This document shows positions 1-13,030 of a DNA stretch of 13,030 nucleotides, one piece after another. How positions within the stretch are numbered: the first letter of the stretch is position 1; each line of letters starts with the position of its first letter. This DNA is from Stephanodiscus triporus (taxonomy: Eukaryota > Bacillariophyta > Thalassiosirophyceae > Thalassiosirales > Thalassiosiraceae): NCBI GenBank assembly GCA_036939755.1, contig JALLAZ010000655.1, positions 1-13,030 of the forward strand. Direction: 5' to 3'. The notes beneath the pieces were generated by a model. It made no database searches. It saw only the letters and a program-made list of their open reading frames with translations, and was not told the DNA's origin. A program made the position numbers and the translations under genes.

Positions 1-339
1 TCGTCGGGGAAGACGCCGCCGGCGTCCTCCTATCGTCGCGAATACGCCGCCGCCGCTGACGACGACCTGGCTTGGGTCGTCATCGTATCACCAAAAATTT
101 AGGCGGCAGAAAACGCTGCGCCTGCACCGATCCCTATGGCCTCGTTGCCATCAAGAGCACACGGCGAGGTGACGATGATGATGACGACGACGACGATGAC
201 GACCCAAGCCAGGTCGTCGTGTCGGAGGACACTGGCGTCCCTCCCCGCGCTGCGACGGGACCTGGCGTCATCGTTCGGGGGACTCCGCGACGCGCTCCTA
301 CGGAATGAGGCGGCGTGAAAGGGAGGGGGGGGGAGGAGA
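1..339. other. GC-rich left edge, coding state unresolved
   Basis: This stretch is GC-rich with short overlapping open frames on both strands. Plus-strand frames give an Asp run (about 172-204) and, in another frame, a helix-like Leu/Arg/Ala segment ending at a TGA near 316-318. The first codons in frame 1 read SSGKT, which resembles the end of a P-loop, but the sequence after it does not look like an ATPase and the frame stops at about 100-102. It may be exons of the gene continuing to about 1060, interrupted by unrecognised introns. No product can be assigned. Confidence 0.3.
59..220. repeat. Perfect 28-bp inverted repeat with 106-bp spacer
   Basis: Bases 59-86 are the exact reverse complement of 193-220; the core reads CCTGGCTTGGGTCGTC on the left and GACGACCCAAGCCAGG on the right. 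The arms lie next to GAC/GTC trinucleotide repeats, but their centre is unique sequence, so the match is not merely a microsatellite effect. A transcript across it could fold into a 28-bp stem with a loop of about 106 nt. It could be the ends of a small non-autonomous element, an introner-like insertion, or a chance local inversion. No target-site duplication was recognised outside the arms. Confidence 0.8.
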
Positions 340-1088
340 ATGCGGCTCTCCTCGGCAGGACGCGTCGGTGATGACGACGACGACGAAGACGACGAAGGTG
401 CGATTCTCGCCGCCGCGTCGTTGGTGGGGGTGGAACTAGCCGCGACGACCGCCAGGGAGTGCGCGCGCGCGTTCCTCGAATCAGCGGGAGGATGCGCGGC
501 CGCCCTGTGGCGTTCGTGGTGGCGTCGCCGTTGTCCCATCCCGTTGCGTCGATCGTCTCGGGCGGCATCACGCCGCCGCGACCACTACCACCGCGACTGC
601 CGCGACGAAATCTTTCCTCGACGACGAGCTGCATCGTCCGGACGTTGACGTCGGCGCGACATCGGAGAGAATGCGCGTCTGGAAGAACTCCGTCTCGCTC
701 TTGACGAGGATCGACATGTCGCTGTGGGACCGCGTGGGGAGGGAGGTGCGCGATGAGTCCGTCGCGTACTCGGAACAACGGGGCAAGGAGGACGACGAGG
801 AGGAGGACGGAAATGACGCCCCCTTCATCGCGCCGATCAAAGTTTTCGATGGAGAGGAGGACCAACCCCCCGCGCGAATCGCGACGTCGTCCTCCTCGAC
901 GCTCGGGTCCGAAGGATTCGTCATTCGCGATTGTGGACGCTGGGACGACAAGCGAACGCGGTTTGACCGAGGATCGCGTCGTCGCACTCTTCTCGTACGC
1001 ATTCGAAAGGGCGGGACTGGGGAGGAAATGCCTCGTCGTGCTCGACGACGTGGACCGGATACTTTGGCTGCAATTTTTCAATAGCATT
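340..1088 (+). CDS. Possible AAA+-like ATPase exons, multi-exon or broken gene
   Basis: No single frame covers this region, but three plus-strand pieces look like protein. Frame 1 (340 to about 520) gives an acidic run then an Ala-rich amphipathic stretch. Frame 2 (about 560 to 915) gives an Ala/Thr-rich linker, a segment containing RMRVWKNSVSLLTRIDMSLW, and an acidic patch. Frame 3 (about 915 to 1088) gives EDRVVALFSYAFERAGLGRK followed by CLVVLDDVDRIL at 1029-1064, a good Walker B motif of the AAA+ type (hydrophobics, then DD), with the usual preceding helix. The best protein signal changes frame near 910-930 with no room for an ordinary intron, so an indel or pseudogene is possible. No convincing Walker A was found. 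The coding signal fades at about 1060, where the DNA turns AT-rich. The specific family is not identified; membership of AAA+ is inference. Confidence 0.4.
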
Positions 1089-1186
1089 GTAATAGCTAAA
1101 ACTTTCGAATGCATTCAAAATTATTCAGGCTTAGTAAATTCATATGAACTACTTCAATTCATTTTACTAACATAAACTTAATGCAG
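1089..1186 (+). other. Candidate 98-bp spliceosomal intron
   Basis: A GTAAT donor at 1089 and a GCAG acceptor ending at 1186 bound an AT-rich stretch with a perfect TACTAAC box (about 1165-1171), placed 15-20 bases before the acceptor as expected of a branch point. Splicing here keeps the Walker B frame open from the upstream piece (phase 0) into 1187-1309, which ends in TGA. The downstream reading is hydrophobic but unrecognised, and it conflicts with the minus-strand retroelement reading of the same DNA, so only one of the two can be right. Confidence 0.4.
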
Positions 1187-1428
1187 GAGTATGGTGTCCT
1201 CCCTCCTTCCCTCGACATCATCTGGACCGTCGTCGTCCCACGGATCGCCACGCTCCACCTCCTTCTTTCCGTCGCCGCCATCGTTTCCACCGGCGGTTGC
1301 AATTCATGAACATACCACAATAATTGATACGCAACCCCATTCTCTTCCCCCCTAATCCGATGAATCCAAAACGACCCCCGCCTCATCGCGTGGATGCAGT
1401 CCCACATCCAATGGCGCGCACCTTGCAT
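1159..1428 (-). pseudogene. Weak retroelement RNase H-tail remnant
   Basis: The minus strand is open for 89 codons from an ATG at 1428 and stays open further upstream. It contains GSFWIHRIRGEENGVAYQLL, which recalls the end of reverse-transcriptase-linked RNase H domains, where a conserved Gly, an Asn and Ala-Asp precede Leu-Ser-Arg. Here the Asp position reads Tyr and the Ser-Arg reads Leu-Trp, so if the match is real the copy is decayed. It begins just where the GC-rich gene to its left breaks off, which would fit an old insertion. No reverse transcriptase, integrase or LTR was recognised nearby. The family call rests on one short motif. Confidence 0.25.
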
Positions 1429-3657
1429 GGGACCATAGGGAGCGGCAGTGCCATGAGTTGGTGGTGCCGCTGATCAACCCATGGAGGGAGAGGGCCAAAG
1501 CCTCTGGGGGTTAGGGGGGCGCTGGCTCATGTTGCTTGTGTGTGTTTTGTGATTGTGTTTTGTGTTTTGGCTCGCATACTTAACCCATTTTGTAGAACAG
1601 AGCACCCAACCCATGCTGATATTTCCCCCCTCTTTAATTCAAGAACTAATGCAAAACCGCTCCCACCAAGCCCATCTGACACCTTGCAATGCACTGTGGA
1701 GGTGTCAGTGGCAGTAAAAATGGGGGGATGCAGTTAGGCTCGGCCTTCATTTTGAGGGGGGAAATATGGATTTTTTCATTCTAGTGTACGCTAGGTAGAA
1801 TAATTTAGACACCAGTTTTTTCTTTGAAATGTTACAGTACCATAGAAAAGTGCTCCATCTAAGATCAAATCCAGTCCTTATACATTATCGGAACTCGATA
1901 CAGCTCATAAGCCACATGCCACACATTCCTCAGCACATGTCAGGAAGAAACATGTGGGGAAGGACAAGTGCATCAAGGCTGCAGAAGATCTAAAAACATG
2001 ACATGTCCACGTAGTCATAAATTACTTTCAGTGCTGCAGGTGACAAAAGCTGCCAATTTGAAGAAGGAGGAGAGCATGAACAAAATGTTGAAATCTGCTT
2101 TCAAAACAGAGTCGTCTGACGTATGACAATGGCTGCACAATGTGGGAAGATGACTGCCAGCCATGTTGAGGGCACCAACAATGTGGGGAAGGGGACAAGC
2201 AAGGATGTTGGTCATGAAATGTCCATGGCTGGGATGACGTTGATGGCGGGAAAATGATGATGAAAACACAGCAGTTAGCCAATGGTGGCTTCAGAAGTAG
2301 CAACATTGTAAGCGGCGGCAGCATCTGCCTGATCAGCTGTGCATTGGATGACAAATTGTGTATCTGTTGTCATCATTGCTGCTCAAACAAGGTGGTTATG
2401 GGTTATGGTTAATGCAGGCAGTAACATCAGCAGTGATACTGGCAATGGCAACAATGGTGCCATAGGACATAATGATGACTGCAAGAATATAAAAATCACA
2501 GCAATGGCAGGTGTGGCAATGTGGGGATAATATCAGTGGCAGCAATGCCAGCTAGTATAAAATGGCCAGAGGTTGACAGCAGTGGCAACAATGGAGAACC
2601 AAACCAATGATGAAAGTTATGAAGAGAAGAGAAGGCAGTGATTTCACAATCAGGCACAAAAACCTGGGGGTGGAGATCATTGTGTTGCTGGGGGATTGAT
2701 TACAAACAGGTGATGTTGAAGGTATTACATTGGAACAGTATCAATGACAAACCATGTACTGTACATTTGATCTCAGCTTACCACCCCAAAACTGGGGGAA
2801 ATTCACCATGACTCCTGGTTGGGCAACAAACTTTTTTTGTAGCAAGAGGACTATTTTACTGAGCGAACTGTTCCTTGTATTTCTTAACTTGACTGTGCAG
2901 CCAATGTCGAAACAGCTGGTTTTCCTGAGATGAGCTGTGACAGATCATGTTATACGTGGATATTTGAGCTAATGCAGAAATGGTATCATTTGTGGGTCAT
3001 TCTCTAGTCACAGAGGGGGCCCTGAAACTTGCATTTGGGGTGGATATTGATGGAGAGAATGAGGGTGAAAGCCAGAATGAAGGTGTCAAATATGGCAGAT
3101 ACTATGATAGATTTGATGGGTGACATTGACATTGTTTCTGGGGGGGTTGGAGACAGCAATGATGACAACAAAGAAATGTGTCATCAACAAACTAAACACA
3201 TATAATATAAACATTGCAAACCAAAATATTCTTTAGTTTTAATGATGTAGAGTTGTTCCTCAGCATTTTGGCTGATTGCCAAATGTCTAGGCACTGCGGG
3301 AGGGGATGCATGGCAGCTGTGAATGTTGGTGCCATCATGGTCATTGTATTGTTGTTTACCTAGTTTTACCCAGAAATCATGTGCTTGACATCATTCGATA
3401 ACACAAAACCAACCCCTGTTGCACCATTATCTCCAACAATAATTGGCCACATCCAAAAAGGTCCTCTGGTCTTCAGAAAACCTGTCCAGGTGCCTTCTAG
3501 TGTAGCACTTACAGATGGATGATACGATAGTCATTTGGCTGGGCCCGGATTAAAACAAACAGTGCGAAGCTTGATCTCAGAGCGAGAGACCGGAATCAAC
3601 TCATTGCAATAAGCGTTATTTATATTGTTTCGAGTAACAACCAAGTCACAACATAGA
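1429..3657. other. 2.2-kb region without a convincing gene
   Basis: Open frames here are short and on both strands, and none has recognisable motifs. Visible structure includes a GT-rich tract at about 1530-1572, short G runs, and a loosely recurring word CAATGTGGG or CATGTGGGG at about 1951, 2138, 2179 and 2517. The text between about 2100 and 2620 is rich in ATGG/CAAC words (cryptic simple sequence). Base composition is clearly lower in GC than the blocks on either side. Decayed mobile-element DNA or ordinary intergenic DNA would both fit. The right end holds the 3' flank of the ankyrin gene. Confidence 0.6.
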
Positions 3658-5046
3658 TCAGATCCTCACACGACCGCGGCGACACTGTCGACAAACTAAT
3701 TGGCTATATGCCATCAATCGGAAGAGAGTGGTACACTGCACACCGCAAAAACTGCATCGCCGTCCTATCGCAGTCATTTTCTCGCTAGCACTCAATTCGT
3801 CACTTTTCCCCACGACGGCGGTAAGAGACGACGAAAAGTTGTTAGACAATGACAGCTCCCGTTTATCAGTTGGGCGTTTTTGCATAATAATAGCAGTTTT
3901 CGGCCGACTCGATGAGAATCCGTCATCACTGATGACAGGAACCTCATCGATATTGTCGTTATCGTTATTTCGAACGAGATCGACGGTCGTCGTCTTCCTT
4001 CCATCGGCCGTTGTACCGCCCCCAACGCCGTCTCCTTTGGGAAAAATATCGATTGACGAGGCGAGGGCCATTCGAAATGCATCCTCCCAAACGACGGAGC
4101 GACACCTCCCATCGCGACACGCCGCATCGCAGTCGTAGACGTTCCCCACATCGTCTGGAAACTCGTCGAATTCAGTCTGTACCTCGCCACGATACGGCGG
4201 GCTGAGCGGCCGCGGCCGTCCCCGACGACGGGAGTTCGTCACCGTCGTCTCGGACGAAGACGCGTCGTCGCGACCGACGTCGGCGGCGGCGCGCTCCAGC
4301 AGACGCAGACAATTTTCCCAATCCGCGCCGGTTCCGCCGGCGACGGCGTCCCACCTCCTCACCGACGCCCCCTCCGCCTCGGCCACGTCGGGCGGCATCG
4401 AGGCGCGCGCGCGCGCCGAATCGAGCGGGGTCGCCCCCGACGCATCCGCGGCCCGCAATGCCTCCCCGAGAATGCCCCGAAGTCGCATCTCGCGCAATAG
4501 CAGTTGGACCGCGAGGGGCCGTCCCCCCGCCACGGCCTTGTGAAGCGGCGTGCCGAGGTCTCCGTAGCTCGCGTCCCTTGCGAGCAGGTCCGCCCGACGA
4601 CGACGATGGCGACGACGGCGTCGAACGACGCCGCCGCCGTCATCTCGTTCGTCGCCGTCGTCGTCGTCCGCCCCCCAGGCGAGCAGAACCCGCATGGAGG
4701 AGATCGCCCCCGAGAACGAGGCCCGATGCAGCGGCGTGGCGCCGCCGCCGCGTCCGGCGCCGTCGTCGTCGAGGCCGGTGTCGACGTCGCGACCGGCCTC
4801 CCCGAGAAGCAGCGAGACCGCATCCGCGTGGCCGTGCTGGGCCGCCAAATGGAGCGGCGTTATCCCCCCGTCGTCACCGATCCTCGACGACGCCCAAGCG
4901 GACGACGACGACGAGTTGCGTATGCGACGGGCGAGGGAGGCGACGTCGCCGTATTCAGCGGACGTGGCCGACGAGAGGGAGAGCGGCGCTCTCTTGCAGG
5001 GACAGTCGGATCTCGATGAGGGGTGGGCGGTGGAAGAGGATGCCAT
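3658..5046 (-). CDS. Ankyrin-repeat protein with C-terminal CxxC-CxxC module
   Basis: The 462-aa frame starts at an ATG inside CCATGG and has an in-frame TGA 24-22 bases upstream, so the start is well supported. Ankyrin repeats are visible at about 60-93 (ITPLHLAAQHGHADAVSLLL), 101-126 (ATPLHRAS), 164-200 (GTPLHKAVAGG) and a weaker one from 203 (GATPLDSA); a degenerate one may precede them at about 28-57. The third repeat is split by a charged insert at about 127-151, first Asp-rich then Arg-rich, both coded by GAC/CGA trinucleotides. Residues 260-425 are low complexity and probably disordered. The end has C431-x2-C434 and C452-x2-C455, a likely zinc-binding knuckle, followed by a basic tail. 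Ankyrin repeats mediate protein binding; the partner is unknown. No signal peptide or membrane segment is evident. GC content falls from the 5' to the 3' end of the gene. Confidence 0.85.
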   Translation of the reverse strand: MASSSTAHPSSRSDCPCKRAPLSLSSATSAEYGDVASLARRIRNSSSSSAWASSRIGDDGGITPLHLAAQHGHADAVSLLLGEAGRDVDTGLDDDGAGRGGGATPLHRASFSGAISSMRVLLAWGADDDDGDERDDGGGVVRRRRRHRRRRADLLARDASYGDLGTPLHKAVAGGRPLAVQLLLREMRLRGILGEALRAADASGATPLDSARARASMPPDVAEAEGASVRRWDAVAGGTGADWENCLRLLERAAADVGRDDASSSETTVTNSRRRGRPRPLSPPYRGEVQTEFDEFPDDVGNVYDCDAACRDGRCRSVVWEDAFRMALASSIDIFPKGDGVGGGTTADGRKTTTVDLVRNNDNDNIDEVPVISDDGFSSSRPKTAIIMQKRPTDKRELSLSNNFSSSLTAVVGKSDELSASEKMTAIGRRCSFCGVQCTTLFRLMAYSQLVCRQCRRGRVRI

Positions 5047-5440
5047 GGTCGAAGGCGGGAGTACAGGTCAAAGCGCCGTTTTCCGAGCCGGAGGCGAGGA
5101 AGAATTATTGGTGCTCGTAACCTGTCAGTGTCCCATCCGCATGGTGCAGATAGGAGGTGACTACTCCTCTGAGTAGAAGAAGAGAGATAGGAATATGATT
5201 AGTGATTAGAGCTTATCATCTATCTACCTACCTAGTACGCAACAGTATCTAATGTTTTGTAGGTTATTATGCTTTACAAAGTACTCTACATATTACAGTT
5301 TCCAGTTCAATTGATGATTTTTTCATCGAACGATGTGGCGATGTATCCCTGAATAATGGCATCGCCAGGAGCCAGGAGCCAACAAAATGGTAGTCTTATC
5401 TTTGTCTTTGTCCGTACTGAGTGTTGGATGTCGTTACTTT
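5047..5440. other. Intergenic gap between Dicer 3' end and ankyrin 5' end
   Basis: Both neighbouring genes read leftward, so this gap must hold the Dicer 3' UTR and the ankyrin promoter. It is mostly AT-rich. A CTAT/CTAC-rich stretch at about 5217-5236 resembles one at about 9348-9365 in the divergent promoter to the right. No clear TATA box, poly(A) signal or RNA gene was identified, and the short plus-strand frames have no recognisable content. Confidence 0.55.
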
Positions 5441-8400
5441 TCACCTCCTTCCTTTTTGATAGAGCGATACAAGGTCGGAGATACCAGCGAAACTCATCCG
5501 CAATTCATCCGGGGACAACATCATCAGTTCCAAGAAGTATGGCCGAATCATTTCCCAGGCATCTTTGACCCCGATTGACAACGCAACTGCGCCAATAATG
5601 GACTTCATAGAAAATTGCAAGTCTTCTGAAGCATTGTTCGGAAGCTTCTTCAAGTGACCCATGAGCCGTCCTGCAGCGAGACCCATGTATTGAGGGTTCG
5701 GGCAACTATAGTAGCCATGGCGCTGAACACGCATCTGAAATTCCTCGCTTCCTCCATGGATGAACCAACCTCCGTTCTTCGCCCACTCTTTGGACCCCAA
5801 CAGATCTGCTTCATCCATGTAATCCTTCATAGTGATGGTGGCATCAGCGTTTTCATCAAACAGGCACTCGTGAAATCTGTTCTTTATGAGAATATACGCA
5901 AGAGAATCGTGCGACATCAACACAGTTTTCATCAAATGAATATCCCCCGAGGTGCTGGCAGGATAGAGATGGTAAATCTCAGATACAATACTCAGTTGCA
6001 GAGCAGCATTACCAACGTTAAAAATTTTGTCTCTGAGTTTGGCAAGGCTTTCCAGGCCAATGCAGTCTGGATTGTTCTCCTCGTTGTCAAGACTATCGTC
6101 GAATAGCGCAGAGTGCAGCAGCAAAGACGATATTGAATCTGACTGAAGGGTTTGTAATCGATCTATGCAGGTGATTCGTTCTCCTAGAAGTCGACAGAAA
6201 GCAGCACTCTTTCTTTGTAATATGAGATGAACATGGGGATAACGTTGTAGCATGCCATTTATTTGTTCCAGCTCGGCGGTTCCTGGACATTCATGGAATG
6301 GATATCCTGCAGTAAGACAGGTTCCTTTGCCACAGAACCAAATGCCAATGTGGTTATCACTGACGCCTGGCGCAAAATTATCTGGGAAACACGGCCCGAT
6401 CTCGTTGAGTAATCCCACTGTCATACATCCAGATTTGTCAAGCAAGAAAGTGGCCCCGATCAGGCTCTCTAGTGTGTCACTCAATTGTTTTTTCGCTACT
6501 TCTATTGTCGGTCTTTCGTTACATGCTTGGTAAAAAGCTCTCCATGATTTCGTTGATGACGAAATACCCGCATTGATCAATCTGTGCAGTCCTATTTGCA
6601 AGGCTGCTTTGAAAAGGACCATATTTTTCCCTTGATTAGTTATCACTTGCTCAAACATATCCAATACAAACTCAGTCGTGCTAGAGTGCATCTTTACGAA
6701 CAAGTTCAAAACAATAAAGTGTAATAAGACACTGTCCCCGAGTGTTTCCAACCGTTCATGACCCCGTACATAAGTAGTTGTACTTTCTGCTTCTTGCACG
6801 TCTCCCCTAGTGGCTTTGTCGATCAAGGGCACAATGTCGGTAATAGAGACTGGAATCGAAACCAGCGAAACATTATTTCTTTGAAGTTCACAAAATCTCA
6901 TTGCAAACAAACGCAGCAGGTAGTTTCGCTCTAATTTTCCAACGTAGTTTGACATTCGTTGGCAGAGGTACAAAAAATCTCGTGGCATTGGGAGGACAAG
7001 AGTTAGCTCTGGAACTAGCAGACCACGAGAAGCGAGAAGATTCGAGATAGATCTCTGAGATGACAGGTCAAATGTTGCAGTCAATGTAGCCTCTCCATAT
7101 ATTCGATGGAAAATTGTCGACTCATGCTGCTCATATGACAATCCAGCTACTGGCAGCGCAGCTATGAGAGGGGTGGAGCAACAACGGATGGAATATTTCC
7201 AAAACTGCTTGTAATACCGGACATGTGTGATTTCTGATAATTGGAGCCCCTCAAACGACAACAACGTTTTTTCCTTTAAGTGGTCAGAAAGTAGTGAAAT
7301 CATGTTTCCAGGAAAAAGCGGCGACGTTGAGGTCTCTGAAGAATCATCCTCATTCTCAGCTATCTTAGTTATGAACACCCGCCCTCCAAATCCAGTGGGT
7401 TGAATAAGAAATCGATTTCGAAGCTGGGATAGAGGAATCCTTTCGGCCGTTGCCAAAGGTTTGTGGCGCACAACATCTGACACGACTTTCCAATCGATTT
7501 CTATTTTTGTTGCACTTGTTGACCTTGGGCACAGCGGAACAAACATGTATGATCGACGGCCACCAGGCACGAGGTCGTCTTCGGACATCCTCGGTAGAAA
7601 ATCACCAAAAACCGGTGGCCCCATCCCATACGTCTTGCCATGGTCAAAAAGGACTTTATTGAAGCATTTGGTCAATGTGATAGGACATCCCCCCTCCCCG
7701 AGATTTATTAACGGAGACGCTTGCTCTATCTGTTGGGTCATTTCTGAAACTGTAACTTCAGTCTGATTAGTCATCATAACACGAACGTTTTCACCGCTGA
7801 CGACGGAACATAACGCCGATGACAGAGTAAAATCAGCCGAAAGCTTGTCTCGGTCATTGTACCCATCATCATACACACCGCAACCGCAAACAACACCGAT
7901 CCGTGTGGCTACATTCGCATCGAGACCGATGGCTTCTGATAGTGGGATCTCATTCCCTTCTTTCATCGCTAGAAAGACCAATTCCAACAAGAAGACCTTT
8001 GATTCAAACTTTGCAGTTGCCCATTTCGGCAGTGTAGCCTCATATGCAATATTTGGTTTAGAAACACTCATCGCAGACATGATGTAGTCACTGTCATCGT
8101 TCGTTGCTCCACGAGCCTTCATCCCACGGTTCAACTTGACGAAGGCATCATTGAATGAATCATCCGTACTCTGGTGGAAATCGCTAGATACTTCAAGAAG
8201 AGATTCATTGGGATCGTTGCAGTGTACATCTTTGACAGACACAATGCACTGCATCGCACACGGATTACAATTAGATACGAATTCGCCGTGAGGATTTTGG
8301 ACTGCACCATAGTAGCGGATGCTTTGCAATTGAAATCGTTCATTTGGCTTGCTACCATTTGAGACCATCCCATCCTCCTTCACATCGCTCCTTGTTTCGT

Positions 8401-9124
8401 TCGTAAGCCAGCCCGACGAATCGCAGTCGTAGTCAGGCTGTTCCCCTAGATCTACAGCAATTAATAGGTTCAAAGCAGCGCTTTTCTGAGCTGCTTTCTT
8501 CGATTTGAACTGGACTGTATTTGAATATTGCCTCCACTCTCCGCACAAATCAAGAAGAAGATGGCCGAGCGGGACACGACAAGGCGAATTTCCCCCATCA
8601 GTTTCCTTCGACAGCAGTTCTGTTTGGTATGTTGACAAAGGGAATTTTCCCGAGCCATGAACTGGATTCACATTCCATATCGCGGCTACATCACATGGGA
8701 TGACAATATCCGAAGTCCACCACAAATCATGAAGAGCCCCAGATGGATGAAATCGGAACCATGATTTAATGCTTTTGGAGTGCGCTTGTTTGTTCTGTTG
8801 GCGTTGAATGGCATCGTACCGAGACTGGAGGACTGCAATCGGCTGGAGCGGGCTGGCAGAAGAACTCGATAGAAAAAGACGGAAGAAGAGGAGGACGTCT
8901 CTATGTTTTTCTGCGGCTTTCGCGCGTCCGTTATTGCCATTCGATCCATTCCCTATGCACTCGTCGTTTGCAGTTTCCGAAGAGTCGATCCCGTCCAAAC
9001 TTTCCACCTCGTCGTTGTGGCTTTCGCATTCGCATGTTGCGCACGCCGACGCACTCTCCGGCGGGAACTTGACCCACGGAGTGAACGACAGCTTTTTACG
9101 CGGCGACGCGTCCAGCCCATTCAT
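5441..9124 (-). CDS. Dicer-like ribonuclease, no helicase, RNase IIIb degenerate
   Basis: The protein has 1227 residues in one uninterrupted frame. The first ATG (9124-9122) follows an in-frame TAA, so no N-terminal helicase is hidden directly upstream. Order of domains: low-complexity N terminus; Dicer-dimerisation-like region (about 90-230, ending in SKKAAQKSAALNLL); platform with IDWKVV (about 543-548); PAZ-like domain to about 660 (RYYKQFWKYS near 636); RNase IIIa (about 730-900) with ERLETLGDSVL and LSDTLESLIGA, carrying E793, D797, D883 and E886; an insert with C931, C936, H944 and C946; RNase IIIb (about 995-1195) where the aligned positions read F1035, N1039, F1171 and K1174. No C-terminal dsRBD follows. 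Dicers cut double-stranded RNA into small RNAs using one RNase III centre per strand; here only the first centre looks able to bind metal. Helicase-free Dicers are known in protists. The family call is firm; the inactivity of IIIb is inferred from my alignment. Confidence 0.93.
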   Translation of the reverse strand: MNGLDASPRKKLSFTPWVKFPPESASACATCECESHNDEVESLDGIDSSETANDECIGNGSNGNNGRAKAAEKHRDVLLFFRLFLSSSSASPLQPIAVLQSRYDAIQRQQNKQAHSKSIKSWFRFHPSGALHDLWWTSDIVIPCDVAAIWNVNPVHGSGKFPLSTYQTELLSKETDGGNSPCRVPLGHLLLDLCGEWRQYSNTVQFKSKKAAQKSAALNLLIAVDLGEQPDYDCDSSGWLTNETRSDVKEDGMVSNGSKPNERFQLQSIRYYGAVQNPHGEFVSNCNPCAMQCIVSVKDVHCNDPNESLLEVSSDFHQSTDDSFNDAFVKLNRGMKARGATNDDSDYIMSAMSVSKPNIAYEATLPKWATAKFESKVFLLELVFLAMKEGNEIPLSEAIGLDANVATRIGVVCGCGVYDDGYNDRDKLSADFTLSSALCSVVSGENVRVMMTNQTEVTVSEMTQQIEQASPLINLGEGGCPITLTKCFNKVLFDHGKTYGMGPPVFGDFLPRMSEDDLVPGGRRSYMFVPLCPRSTSATKIEIDWKVVSDVVRHKPLATAERIPLSQLRNRFLIQPTGFGGRVFITKIAENEDDSSETSTSPLFPGNMISLLSDHLKEKTLLSFEGLQLSEITHVRYYKQFWKYSIRCCSTPLIAALPVAGLSYEQHESTIFHRIYGEATLTATFDLSSQRSISNLLASRGLLVPELTLVLPMPRDFLYLCQRMSNYVGKLERNYLLRLFAMRFCELQRNNVSLVSIPVSITDIVPLIDKATRGDVQEAESTTTYVRGHERLETLGDSVLLHFIVLNLFVKMHSSTTEFVLDMFEQVITNQGKNMVLFKAALQIGLHRLINAGISSSTKSWRAFYQACNERPTIEVAKKQLSDTLESLIGATFLLDKSGCMTVGLLNEIGPCFPDNFAPGVSDNHIGIWFCGKGTCLTAGYPFHECPGTAELEQINGMLQRYPHVHLILQRKSAAFCRLLGERITCIDRLQTLQSDSISSLLLHSALFDDSLDNEENNPDCIGLESLAKLRDKIFNVGNAALQLSIVSEIYHLYPASTSGDIHLMKTVLMSHDSLAYILIKNRFHECLFDENADATITMKDYMDEADLLGSKEWAKNGGWFIHGGSEEFQMRVQRHGYYSCPNPQYMGLAAGRLMGHLKKLPNNASEDLQFSMKSIIGAVALSIGVKDAWEMIRPYFLELMMLSPDELRMSFAGISDLVSLYQKGRR

Positions 9125-9454
9125 GCCAGCAGACCGCACAATGTATTGCCTTGCTAGCCGCGTGTTTTATGGTGTCCATTTATGTACGAGTGGGAACATA
9201 ACTTTTTAAGAAAAAAGGATTGAAATTCTAATAATCCCATCGTCACTGGCATGTAGCGATAGGAGTAGAAGTGTTCTCATAACCTCTAATAATCCCATCG
9301 TCACTGGCATGTATCTAGCGATAGGAGTAGAAGTGAGTACTTAGGTACTTATCTATCTACGTACTATGGTAACAGAAATTGCGCGCGGTTGTTGGCAGTG
9401 GAATCTTTTGGGGGGGGGCATTCCCGCCAATAAAATAATAATTTACCAAAAAAC
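9125..9454. promoter_or_regulatory. Divergent promoter region, Dicer / SDR fusion
   Basis: About 330 bp separate the Dicer ATG (leftward) from the SDR-fusion ATG (rightward), so both 5' UTRs and core promoters must fit here unless a gene has distant exons. The SDR start is preceded by an A/T-rich leader with an in-frame TAA, and the Dicer start by an in-frame TAA about 40 bases upstream. A duplicated 47/51-bp segment occupies the centre. A run of nine G lies at 9410-9418. No definite TATA box or initiator was recognised. Confidence 0.6.
9227..9335 (+). repeat. Imperfect direct repeat, 47 and 51 bp
   Basis: Copy 1 (9227-9273) and copy 2 (9285-9335) are identical apart from four extra bases in copy 2 after the shared CTGGCATGTA (copy 2 continues TCTAGCGATAGG, copy 1 GCGATAGG). 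They are separated by 11 bp, giving a 58-bp period. The near identity implies a recent duplication or maintenance by selection. The position inside the divergent promoter suggests duplicated binding sites, but no known factor motif is claimed. Confidence 0.9.
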
Positions 9455-9761
9455 ATGTTGCCGAGCAAGGAGGGGGACGCGGATGACATAACGACGAAGG
9501 TCGTCATCACCGGCGGGGGTGGATTCCTCGGCCAGGTCCTCGCCAGGGAGATACTGAAGAGGGGCCGGCGCCTTCGATCGGGGTCCGTCGCGAGCGCGAG
9601 GGTCGTCGAGATCGTCCTCGCCGACATCGTCGAGCCGGAGGAATACCTGTTCGAAGACCTGGAGTCGTCCGCTCGAGCCGGCGGCGTCGCCCTGCGGTTC
9701 GAGGTGGGGGACGTGTCGGACGTCGACTACTGCAGGTCCATAATCGGCGTGCAGAACCGGG

Positions 9762-9794
<33 letters not shown>

Positions 9795-11518
9795 GGGAGG
9801 ACGATGACCGTCGCGGCCTGTCCGTGTTTCATTTGGGGGCCGTGATGAGCGGCGCGCCCCCCGACCTTGCCCTGAGGGTGAACCTCCAGGGGACGATCAA
9901 CATGCTCGAGGCCACGCGCGAGTGGCGGGAGGCGCATCCCCCCCCCCTCCCGCGACCTACTTTCATGTTCTCGTCGGCCGGGGCCACCGTCGGGGCCGGC
10001 CGCGACGCCGACTGGGTGACGCGCGACGACACCATCTCCGACGCGACCCGCTCCGCGCCCCACACCACCTACGGCACCACTAAGGCCTGCGCCGAGCTGT
10101 TGCTCGCGGATTACTCCCGACGAGGGTTTTGCGACGGACGGGGGGTGCGACTCCCCACAGTCGTCGTCAGGCCGGGTGCTCCGAACGCAGCCACCACTTC
10201 CTGCTTCTCTGCTGTTGTGCGAGAGCCTCTGTCGGGGAAGGACGTCGTCCTCCCCTTGGGGTCGGACGTGCTCCACGCCGTCACGGGGTACCGTGCCGCC
10301 ATAGGTGGGATACTTGCCGTGCACGACGCCGCCCCGGACGACGTCGATCGTCTCCTGGGGCACGACAGGACGGTTTTCCTCCCGACGAGGGCGGTTTCCC
10401 TCGGGCAGCTCGCGGGGGCGATGGCGAGCCTGGTCGAGCCCGACTCTTCCTCGAGGCTTGGGCGCCTGGCGTACGACGTGGACGAGACGCTGAGCGAGAT
10501 TGTGGGATCGTTCCCGACGAAGGTCAACTCCGGGAGGGCGCTGGCCCTGGGCGCGCCTCCCGCGCCTGCCGTCGAGGTCATGATCCGCGAGTACTGCGAG
10601 GACTTCGCGCGCGCATTGGCCGAGGGCGTCGCGCTGAGGGCGATGGAAGAGGACGCGCCCCCGCCCGCCGCGATCGAGCCCAATCGCGATCGCGTCGTGG
10701 CGCTCATCACCGGCGGCGGGAGTGGGATCGGACGCGCCGTCGCGGTGCAACTGGCCAGGGGGGGCTGGGGTGGAGTGGACGGAAGAGGCAACGATGGCGA
10801 CGGAAAGTCGCTGAGAGTTGGCTTGGTATTGGTGGGGAGACGGCCTGAACCGTTGGTGGCGACCAAGGAACTTTGCGAGGAATTCTCTGGCGCAGAGATT
10901 GACATCCTGACAATGCCCACGGACGTTACGAACGAAGACGACGTACGGCGGCTCATGGGATGCATCCAATCGCAATTTGCGAGAGTAGATCTCCTTTTCA
11001 ATAACGCTGGGATCAATATCGCACCTTCCTCGGTGGAGGATATCGATTCCGCCGACTTCCAGAAAGTAATTGACACGAACGTCACCGCATGTTGGAGGAT
11101 GGCCAAGGGAGTCATGCGGCTCATGTCGACTCAGCAACCACAGGGAGGACGCATCATAAATAACGGTTCCATTAGTTCGCACACTCCGCGTCCTGGCTCG
11201 GCGCCGTACACGGCATCGAAGCACGCGGTCCTCGGGTTGACGAAGTGCATCGCGCTCGACGGCAGGAGATCAAATATCACCTGTGGACAGATCGATTTCG
11301 GTAACGTGAACAGCGACATGACGAAGGCCGTCGGGGGTTCCGCCTACTCGATGAGCGCGGGGATGCCTCAGGCCAACGGTACGATTGCGCCGGAACCTTG
11401 CTTTTCGGTGGAGGATGCCGCAAAAGCAGTTTTTTCAATGGCGGCATTGCCTTTAGGGGCTAATGTTTTCAACATGACCGTCATGGCCAGTCAGATGCCC
11501 TATGTCGGACGAGGATAA
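9455..11518 (+). CDS. DenD-like extended SDR fused to a classical SDR
   Basis: One 687-residue frame holds two Rossmann enzymes. The first (about 15-385) has TGGGGFLG (G20, G23, G26), FHLGAVMSG, SSAG near 173 and YGTTK (Y206, K210). Its LLADYSRRGFCDGRGVRLPT and VVRPGAPNAATTS segments match the D-erythronate dehydrogenase (DenD) group of bacterial extended SDRs, which oxidise D-erythronate with NAD. After a Pro/Ala-rich linker, the second (about 412-687) is a classical SDR with TGGGSGIG (419-426), NNAG (516-519), a Ser at 572 and YTASK (Y585, K589), ending in MASQMPYVGRG, a tail I associate with a bacterial SDR group. Both catalytic sets look complete. Low-complexity inserts (G103-G111 plus acids; a Gly/Asp insert near 440) look like host-type expansions. 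The start follows an in-frame TAA. Substrates are unproven; a two-step oxidation of a sugar acid is one guess. Bacterial origin is plausible but untested. Confidence 0.92.
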
Positions 11519-11598
11519 ACGATATGTATAGTGACAAAAAGGCCCTGAGAAGACATAAAACTGTCTGCGGATAATATTATAAGATGGCGTCGCCGATT

Positions 11599-11816
11599 TC
11601 ATATCGTTACTTCCATCTGTGCCATGTCACATGAGAATTGACAAATTTCAGAAATCAAGTCGCCACTCCCAGAGAGCTCGCTCGCCTGGCTGCTGTCGTC
11701 ATCATTTGCCTCATCAAAGTCGACAGGCATCACAGGTCCTGTTATTCCGCTTTGGATAAAAAGTCGAGCTCATCATTTGTTGGCCTCTGGCGGGGGTAGA
11801 TTTCCATTTCGTACAT
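11599..11816 (-). CDS. Possible 3' coding fragments of an unrecognised gene
   Basis: Two minus-strand frames look like protein despite being short. The first (11816-11742, 24 residues from an ATG) contains MEIYPRQRPTNDELDFL and stops at TAA. The second overlaps it in another frame and runs to TGA at 11599; from an ATG at 11730 it gives 43 residues including MPVDFDEANDDDSSQASELS, an acidic, probably disordered C terminus. A possible acceptor, TAACAG, lies near 11737 just before the second piece. They could be terminal exons of a gene read leftward, perhaps the one at 12381-13030, or a decayed gene with a frameshift. No family is recognised. Confidence 0.3.
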
Positions 11817-11981
11817 ACTTGTGGATTATTTAGGGCGGCTGGCAGAGTTCAGACACACTAGGGACAGAGAGAGGAGGCGCAGGAATTAATATGGCTTTAC
11901 GTATGTTCCGTAGTACGGCAGGATCGTGGAGGACGGGAAGGGAAGGGGGTACCCCACCCATATCTGGATACCAGCTAACGA

Positions 11982-12007
11982 CTGTCTGTAACTAGCAGTA
12001 CAGACAG
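11982..12007. repeat. Short hairpin, 9-bp stem and 8-nt loop
   Basis: CTGTCTGTA (11982-11990) is the reverse complement of TACAGACAG (11999-12007), separated by ACTAGCAG. The stem is too short to claim a function and could arise by chance. Confidence 0.5.
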
Positions 12008-12380
12008 GCGTATCCTGGCACCCATCACAATAATGGCCTCCCGTATGTAGGATTTGTACCAGAACCTCTGCGGAGGCTAAAATCATTTTCGGCAGCCACC
12101 TTTCTCCTTAATGCTAGCGTCCCACCATGGTAATTTTCGCCAAAAACGCAATCTTGTGTAGCAGCAAGACCCCCCCCCCCATTCAAAATCCGCTCAGACT
12201 TAAGCTTCCACCATCATGCGGAATGACACTGGCCGCTCGGTGTCGCCTTGCCCACTGTACCAAGTCCCTCTTTGGGGCCCTCCTGTATGTGTGTTATTTG
12301 CATGGTTTGTGAGGCTTGTTGCCCTCTTGTTGCACCAATCCGCCATTGCCCATCCACGTCCCCTTCGTCATAGTCCTTCG

Positions 12381-13030
12381 TCATAGTCGCGCCCACCGTC
12401 GTGTTCGTGTTCCCCGTCGTTGACGCGTCCACCGTCGTGTTCGCATCCCACGCCACTGTCTCGTCATGCCCTCTATTGGCGTTCCGGCGGTGACCGGTTT
12501 TGATATCATTGCACAAAAAATAAAGGCCGTCGCCAGCGAGCATGCACCACCGTCGTCGTCGTCGGTGGCTGTCTCGATGGCCACCACCGGTCGGCTCTTA
12601 CACAGCTCCTTCCAATCGCATTCATCCGGTCGGGCAAGGGTGAATGCTAGGGATAATCCAATTTTATCTGACACTCGCGACTGTTTGGCGAAGCGACGTC
12701 GGACAGGACGTGTTACACCGGCGTCTGCTTCGTCGGTCGATGGCTCTTCGCAACGCTCGTCTCCCACGTCGGTTGATGGCCCTTCATGCCGCTCGTCCTC
12801 CACGTCGGTCGATGGCTCTTCACGCCGCTCGTCGCCCACGTCGGTTGCTGGCTCTTCGCGCCGCTCGTCGTACACGTCAGTCGATGGCTCTTCACGCCGC
12901 TCGTCGTCCACGTCGGTCGATGGCTCTTCACGCCGCTCGTCGTCCACGTCGGTCGATGGCTCTTTGACTCGCTCGTCATCCGGTTCGGTCGTCAGTTCGC
13001 TATCGGGGGGGTCATCTACAATCGCATCCC
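12381..13030 (-). CDS. Acidic repeat protein, N terminus beyond window
   Basis: The minus strand is open from the right edge to a TGA at 12381-12383, about 215 codons. No ATG is needed inside the window, so the start probably lies outside it. The visible part opens with acidic residues, then seven 12-residue units of the form DDERREEPSTDV (12982-12731), strongly charged and likely disordered. After these comes a non-repeat segment with RVSDKIGLSLAFTLARPDEC and WKELCKSRP, and an Asp run ending at about 12548. The last 30 or so residues are Arg/Trp/Thr-rich and look unnatural; a candidate intron at 12471-12550 would replace them with a Thr/Asn-rich tail ending near 12214. The units differ mostly by substitutions that keep the frame and the D/E/P pattern, which favours this strand. 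Function unknown. Confidence 0.5.
   Translation of the reverse strand, partial: DAIVDDPPDSELTTEPDDERVKEPSTDVDDERREEPSTDVDDERREEPSTDVYDERREEPATDVGDERREEPSTDVEDERHEGPSTDVGDERCEEPSTDEADAGVTRPVRRRFAKQSRVSDKIGLSLAFTLARPDECDWKELCKSRPVVAIETATDDDDGGACSLATAFIFCAMISKPVTAGTPIEGMTRQWRGMRTRRWTRQRRGTRTRRWARL
12471..12550 (-). other. Candidate 80-bp intron, minus strand
   Basis: On the minus strand a GT at 12550-12549 and an AG at 12472-12471 bound a stretch with an AT-rich centre (about 12510-12525). Removing these 80 bases joins the Asp-run codons to a frame containing ETVAWDANTT and TTGNTNTTVG, which looks more like protein than the unspliced Arg/Trp-rich frame and ends at 12214. An alternative acceptor two bases earlier (TAG at 12475-12473) would keep the original frame. 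Neither boundary has strong consensus. Confidence 0.25.
12731..12982. repeat. Tandem array, seven 36-bp units
   Basis: Units begin at 12731, 12767, 12803, 12839, 12875, 12911 and 12947, each 36 bp and starting CGTC(G/A)GT on the plus strand. The units at 12875 and 12911 differ at only one base, while the outer units are more diverged, as expected of an array growing by unequal exchange or slippage. The period is a multiple of three, and the minus-strand reading gives a 12-residue acidic repeat. There are no spacers between units. Confidence 0.92.

Follow-up and report, generated by a model that had tools for sequence, protein, structure and literature searches.

Can a Dicer still serve a cell when one of its two nuclease domains has lost every metal-binding acid? 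The question is raised by a 13,030-nt stretch of the diatom Stephanodiscus triporus (contig JALLAZ010000655.1, positions 1 to 13,030; hereafter the window), which encodes a Dicer-like protein with two ribonuclease III (RNase III) domains, IIIa and IIIb (Table 1). IIIa has its metal-binding acids intact; IIIb keeps its predicted fold and has lost all four acids, as has every examined relative that covers them, with a lysine fixed at the fourth position. Probably the enzyme cleaves RNA strands singly or has to associate in pairs before both are cleaved. Residues are counted from the ATG; a similar M-x-G block starts the consensus of the relatives, most of which begin in this way.

Codons and alignments to solved structures both confirmed the loss. 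A first-pass annotation, made from the letters alone, had recognised IIIb as a second RNase III domain and read its metal positions as F1035, N1039, F1171 and K1174 in place of E, D, D and E. A Pfam scan of the protein bears out the domain call with two Ribonuclease_3 (PF00636) stretches, and in a PF00636 search of the organism's own genome the IIIb stretch by itself scores 28.1 bits, above the cut-off of 27. Every codon reads as annotated, both at these four positions and at the four acids said to remain in IIIa (E793, D797, D883 and E886). In a sequence search of solved structures, the IIIb piece matched RNase III chains from Thermotoga (1o0w, E 0.0072), Mycobacterium (2a11, E 0.065) and E. 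coli (7r97, E 0.16), and in all three its K-I-F-N-V-G-N aligns to K/R-L-E-F-L-G-D, with F1035 on the E and N1039 on the D. A wrong register at the second motif is countered by a shared S-x-x-GA block and by a second 2a11 stretch that sets F-S-M-K on D-G-M-E, with F1171 on D122 and K1174 on E125 (4.7 bits, not significant alone). Profile comparison (hhalign) pairs the diatom IIIb with canonical Dicer IIIb (E 2.5e-9, probability 96) ahead of canonical IIIa (E 4.4e-5, probability 69); the canonical profiles come from nine rows, with P0027 left out, and the IIIb alignment ends before the second motif.

The loss extends to all relatives in which the site can be read. Three protein searches, each scoring only the roughly 8000 candidates that shared most words, gave 17, 24 and 31 overlapping rows at their thresholds. 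The resulting alignment holds 46 rows (the window protein and 45 relatives); a truncated copy, P0019, and ten canonical Dicers (P0021-P0027, P0054-P0056) stand outside it. Seven of the 45 relatives are named, all of them diatoms (Cyclostephanos, two Discostella, two Thalassiosira, Cyclotella and Fragilaria), and for the other 38 we infer a diatom-type protein. The first-pass annotation had held that relatives should share a genuine change and that acid-bearing close orthologues would imply an assembly error; neither the window protein nor any of the 45 relatives has an acid at any of the four IIIb metal positions that it covers. Five rows (P0015, P0020, P0038, P0050 and P0051) do not cover the second motif. 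Across the 46 rows, position 1035 reads F in 28, Y in 6, G in 3, S in 3, T in 2, A in 2, N in 1 and V in 1, and position 1039 reads N in 17, A in 15, S in 8, H in 4, V in 1 and T in 1. In all ten canonical Dicers, which these searches also brought up, the second RNase III domain retains ExxGD. Because codons, alignments, relatives and these controls agree, both chance and a local assembly error can be set aside as explanations of the loss. When the 46 rows were placed in a tree with four of the ten canonical Dicers, the two sets parted with 100/100 support, and several rows drew long-branch warnings; since the loss is common to the relatives and the sets lie apart, it is old within this unevenly sampled collection.

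By sequence comparison, IIIb is not decaying, its conservation being close to that of an active domain. In 34 of the 46 rows, mean pairwise identity is 0.470 for IIIb (205 columns) and 0.421 for IIIa, and the N-terminal and platform/PAZ regions stand at about 0.28; on core columns alone IIIa is higher, at 0.519 versus 0.488. With slightly different limits, IIIb similarity equals or exceeds that of IIIa in 641 of 741 pairs (39 of the 46 rows). This excess is not special to the diatom set, because canonical Dicers show it as well (0.508 versus 0.477; the same nine rows). Among the residues strongly conserved in IIIb are R1031 (46/46), D1032 (D in 44 and E in 2 of 46), R1153 and K1174 (41/41 each) and an acid at position 1168 (40/41); D1168 is possibly an alternative ligand or a salt-bridge partner. 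The first-pass annotation had offered single-strand cutting, a dimer or partner, or a purely structural second domain as consequences of the loss. The loss is real, and the conservation of the remaining domain fits the option of a structural partner. The copy outside the alignment, P0019, is a second Cyclostephanos sequence that stops before IIIb and has LGN in place of LGD in IIIa; counting it, D797 is conserved in 46 of 47.

The window protein is a diatom Dicer with a platform, a PAZ-like region, a connector and two RNase III domains, and it is helicase-free. Its tandem RNase III domains lie in a single chain, as two PF00636 stretches and the predicted model attest, and in the model the regions of both IIIa and IIIb can be laid over experimentally solved RNase III domains. 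The platform-PAZ-connector arrangement upstream of IIIa is given by predicted fold only; the whole core of the model matches mouse Dicer, DCL3 and Giardia Dicer. Pfam reports no PAZ match in the window protein at the sequence level, and PF02170 matches, all below cut-off, occur in 6 of 11 scanned relatives (P0016, P0029, P0039, P0043, P0050 and P0053). An N-terminal helicase with DUF283, a combination not universal among Dicers, was not found: no helicase or Dicer_dimer family matches the window protein in Pfam at E <= 1. The helicase is described as missing from Giardia Dicer too (PMC3145265). For the N-terminal region at aa 65-226, Foldseek returned nothing at E 0.001 or better, its top rows being double-stranded-RNA-binding domains (dsRBDs) of MLE at E 0.33. 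A canonical two-site Dicer has acids in both metal sites, and here IIIa has them and IIIb does not; the loss bars that label, not membership of the Dicer family.

We consider it likely that IIIb is a pseudonuclease in the diatom Dicer, so that each polypeptide has one cutting site and cuts the IIIa-served strand in each binding event. IIIb would complete the intramolecular IIIa/IIIb dimer and grip the second RNA strand, and its invariant lysine might, as a guess, substitute for the positive charge of the metal. Because there would be one cutting site per polypeptide, only the IIIa-side strand would be cut per binding event, and making a duplex small RNA would take either another binding event or another molecule of the enzyme. 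Human DICER1 provides the analogy. There the 3p cut falls to IIIa and the 5p cut to IIIb, and when E1705, D1709, D1810 or E1813 is mutated in tumours, D1709N and E1813K being examples, 5p cutting is lost and 3p cutting is retained (PMC9990750); E1813K is described as a IIIb-dead change (PMC10273190). By motif spacing and fold we match these hotspots to F1035, N1039, F1171 and K1174, and the diatom N1039 and K1174 parallel D1709N and E1813K themselves. DICER1 carries a disease mutation at one site, whereas the diatom protein has a fixed natural state at all four. If the analogy holds, cutting by the diatom enzyme should be confined to the strand on the IIIa side. In Phaeodactylum tricornutum, miRNA-like duplexes are reported with 2-nt 3' overhangs on one side only, which the authors could not reconcile with processing by an ordinary Dicer; they proposed either that Dicer is bypassed or that the P. 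tricornutum Dicer-like enzyme cuts atypically (PMC4247016).

Several points weigh against the one-site reading. A review has the P. tricornutum DCR processing 26-31-nt double-stranded small RNAs (PMC11910954); this argues for both strands being cut eventually, through two events or two molecules. IIIa itself is imperfect in some rows, with N for D883 in 3 of 46 and A for E886 in 1 of 46. Two conserved acids, D1032 and D1168, are found a single turn away from the former site and on its two helices, making a shifted metal site conceivable. The aligned rows are also not independent, several being near-copies, and only 7 of the 45 relatives are assigned to organisms.

The best-surviving alternative, which we rate as unlikely, is an intermolecular dimer, in which two molecules join through their IIIa domains to cleave both strands, after the manner of budding-yeast Dcr1, leaving IIIb a structural remnant. 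IIIa is the sole intact site, the duplex small RNAs reported for P. tricornutum DCR (PMC11910954) fit such pairing, and yeast Dcr1, with a single RNase III domain, is described as yielding sized siRNAs through adjacent molecules (PMC10328071). IIIb, however, matches IIIa in conservation, and the predicted model can be laid over solved Dicers in their intramolecular IIIa/IIIb arrangement. Together, the modelled fit and the conservation suggest that IIIb still occupies the IIIa dimer face.

A partner in trans, with IIIa nicking one strand and a different nuclease completing the cut, is less probable still. It draws on Thalassiosira pseudonana, where a helicase-dsRBD protein has been suggested to work with the PAZ-RNase III protein (PMC3155517); that same helicase-dsRBD protein is described as having no RNase III domain, which speaks against this reading. 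The organism's own genome, a 21.65-Mb draft of 1324 contigs that may be incomplete (the window is its C649), was searched ignoring introns. PF00636 matched the two Dicer stretches and one other gene, which we take from its motif shape to be Mini-III-like; this gene falls in two frames, presumably because of an intron, and as the only other PF00636 match it counts against a partner. A Dicer protein search of the draft found no second Dicer copy. PF14622 gave nothing at E <= 0.001, which is no evidence of absence because the window's own IIIa was missed too. Genes with dsRBD matches lie on contigs C524 and C142; the C524 gene has no RNase III or helicase match, and the lack of a helicase match rules it out as a helicase partner of the T. 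pseudonana type. A Piwi piece just under cut-off and three RNA-dependent RNA polymerase matches, one with an internal stop, lie on contigs C2, C1063, C730 and C40, which suggests that other parts of RNA interference (RNAi) are present.

We give slightly less credence again to an active IIIb that uses a shifted metal site built from D1032 and D1168. An acid stands at 1032 in 46/46 rows and at 1168 in 40/41, each one helical turn before F1035 or F1171 on the site-bearing helices. Ligand geometry in RNase III is strict, however, and an invariant lysine and a near-invariant phenylalanine fill two of the old metal positions. Nor is D1032 new to IIIb, because the matching IIIa position, 790, is often acidic as well (E 24, D 1, Q 20, H 1 in 46 rows). 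A pseudogene or assembly error has virtually no claim: the frame is open, the window contains no N, one relative is 91-92% identical and all covering rows of the 46 share the losses, so that codons and relatives rule out assembly error, frameshift and pseudogene alike.

Most of the diatom-type Dicers differ from the window protein in a second respect, an insert with hydrophobic stretches between the platform block that ends in IDW and the PAZ-side block NRF. The insert is present in 32 of the 44 covering rows (P0009, P0012-P0017 and P0028-P0052), in columns between W545 and N570 of the window protein (window 7415-7492). It is missing from the window, P0001-P0008, P0010, P0011 and P0053, and P0018 and P0020 do not cover the region. 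Scored by a 19-residue hydropathy rule, 24 rows have at least two stretches and eight have one. At a threshold of 1.6 the rule also fires elsewhere in 36/46 rows, often in RNase III helices, with a highest peak of 2.09 there; the insert peaks above 2.1 in 28 of the 32 rows that bear it. To judge by sequence, these Dicers seem to carry a membrane hairpin. An unspliced intron is unlikely for P0016, P0017, P0028, P0029 and P0030, which share residues within the insert. The window's group, 13 rows of which 11 lack the insert and two do not cover it, is a supported clade (99/98) nested among insert-bearing rows, which suggests a single loss in that group. By title, none of the literature matches listed concerned a diatom Dicer with a transmembrane segment. 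In P0001, the nearest relative, a separate insert of 82 aa, also with hydrophobic stretches, lies slightly downstream (residues ~605-690); it matches PF11016 (DUF2854) weakly and below cut-off (E 1.2e-4) and may be either an intron or a genuine hairpin. The very divergent relative P0053 shows weak N-terminal La and RRM matches below cut-offs.

The bare fact of a varied IIIb is partly published; what is added here is its breadth, the fixed replacements and the hydrophobic insert. A 2016 account reports variation in both motifs of IIIb for T. pseudonana DCR as well as P. tricornutum DCR1, and in the second motif of IIIa for DCR1 (PMC4791657); it gives the IIIb variation one sentence and leaves the replacing residues unnamed. 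A 2011 review took conserved key residues as support for the T. pseudonana and P. tricornutum proteins as true dicers (PMC3145265). Both proteins are described, like ours, as helicase-free chains with two RNase III domains (PMC4791657, PMC3145265, PMC3155517, PMC4247016). Among the literature matches listed, no title or abstract beginning presented loss of the site as characteristic of diatom Dicers. Both active sites of Giardia Dicer (2ffl) are intact, in contrast to the diatom protein.

Other systems share parts of the diatom arrangement. In the trypanosome editosome, KREN1-3 and KREPB6-8 are described as pairing catalytic and non-catalytic RNase III domains, with one-strand cutting proposed (PMC9508840). 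Those are separate proteins for RNA editing, whereas the diatom domains share one Dicer chain; the diatom residues are as such a mode requires, and the pairing would follow from the Dicer-like predicted fold. The Mucor silencing protein R3B2 likewise has an RNase III-like domain with altered catalytic residues, and three of four M. circinelloides R3B2 paralogues carry lysine at one catalytic position; unlike the diatom protein, R3B2 has a single RNase III domain with two dsRBDs, and most members are described as keeping the catalytic acids (PMC4395119). Budding-yeast Dcr1 and Entamoeba RNase III also have one active RNase III domain per polypeptide, but the second domain, kept in the diatom, is missing from them (PMC10328071, PMC5357909, PMC4521922).

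GC content is ~42-48% across the Dicer gene and positions 1500-3500, and rises to ~65-70% in neighbouring stretches. The genes around the Dicer are listed at the end of Table 1.

Table 1. Features of the Dicer-like gene, its neighbours in the window and the Mini-III-like gene elsewhere in the draft genome (nucleotide positions are those of the window unless a contig is named)
Feature	Residues or codon	Position	Strand	Remarks
Dicer-like gene	1227 aa	5441-9124	minus	uninterrupted frame; ATG 9122-9124, TGA 5441-5443
Predicted helix-strand-helix domain	aa 65-226	8447-8932	minus	dsRBD-like by weak fold matches only
Predicted beta-beta-beta-alpha domain	aa 264-337	8114-8335	minus	dsRBD/DUF283-like by shape only
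Platform, PAZ-like region, connector	aa 400-740	6905-7927	minus	without hydrophobic insert
RNase IIIa	aa 785-900	6425-6772	minus	four metal-binding acids all present
E793, IIIa metal ligand	GAA	6746-6748	minus	E in 46/46 rows
D797, IIIa metal ligand	GAC	6734-6736	minus	D in 46/46 rows
D883, IIIa metal ligand	GAC	6476-6478	minus	D 43, N 3 (46 rows)
E886, IIIa metal ligand	GAG	6467-6469	minus	E 45, A 1 (46 rows)
RNase IIIb, likely pseudonuclease domain	aa 1001-1205	5510-6124	minus	
R1031-D1032, conserved pair		6029-6034	minus	one helical turn before F1035
F1035, replaces metal-binding E	TTT	6020-6022	minus	
N1039, replaces metal-binding D	AAT	6008-6010	minus	
D1168, conserved acid		5621-5623	minus	one helical turn before F1171
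F1171, replaces metal-binding D	TTT	5612-5614	minus	F 40, V 1 (41 covering rows)
K1174, replaces metal-binding E	AAG	5603-5605	minus	K in 41/41 covering rows
Mini-III-like RNase III (presumed)		L003 (C21:26386-29526), 1432-2413	minus	split over two frames
Ankyrin-repeat protein	462 aa	3658-5046	minus	
Epimerase-like joined to short-chain dehydrogenase domain	687 aa	9455-11518	plus	one frame
Open frame with many DERREEPSTDV-like repeats		12381-13028	minus	runs past contig end

The usual picture of Dicer is a ruler with two blades by which both strands are cut, and a major algal lineage appears to keep a strongly conserved one-blade version. Positions hit by tumour mutations in human DICER1 have changed naturally and permanently in the diatom Dicer, apparently a natural case of a nuclease domain turned structural. 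We suggest, tentatively and at less than even odds, that diatoms run RNAi with half a Dicer: an ancestral nicking enzyme whose second blade became a fixed, lysine-bearing RNA clamp, and which is tethered to a membrane by the platform-PAZ hairpin in most sampled lineages. In each event such an enzyme, if real, would nick or let go a single strand, which would explain one-sided overhangs and unusual small-RNA sizes. The oddities of diatom small RNAs, including those one-sided overhangs and the finding of no canonical miRNAs in P. tricornutum, become testable with one enzyme and its point mutants.
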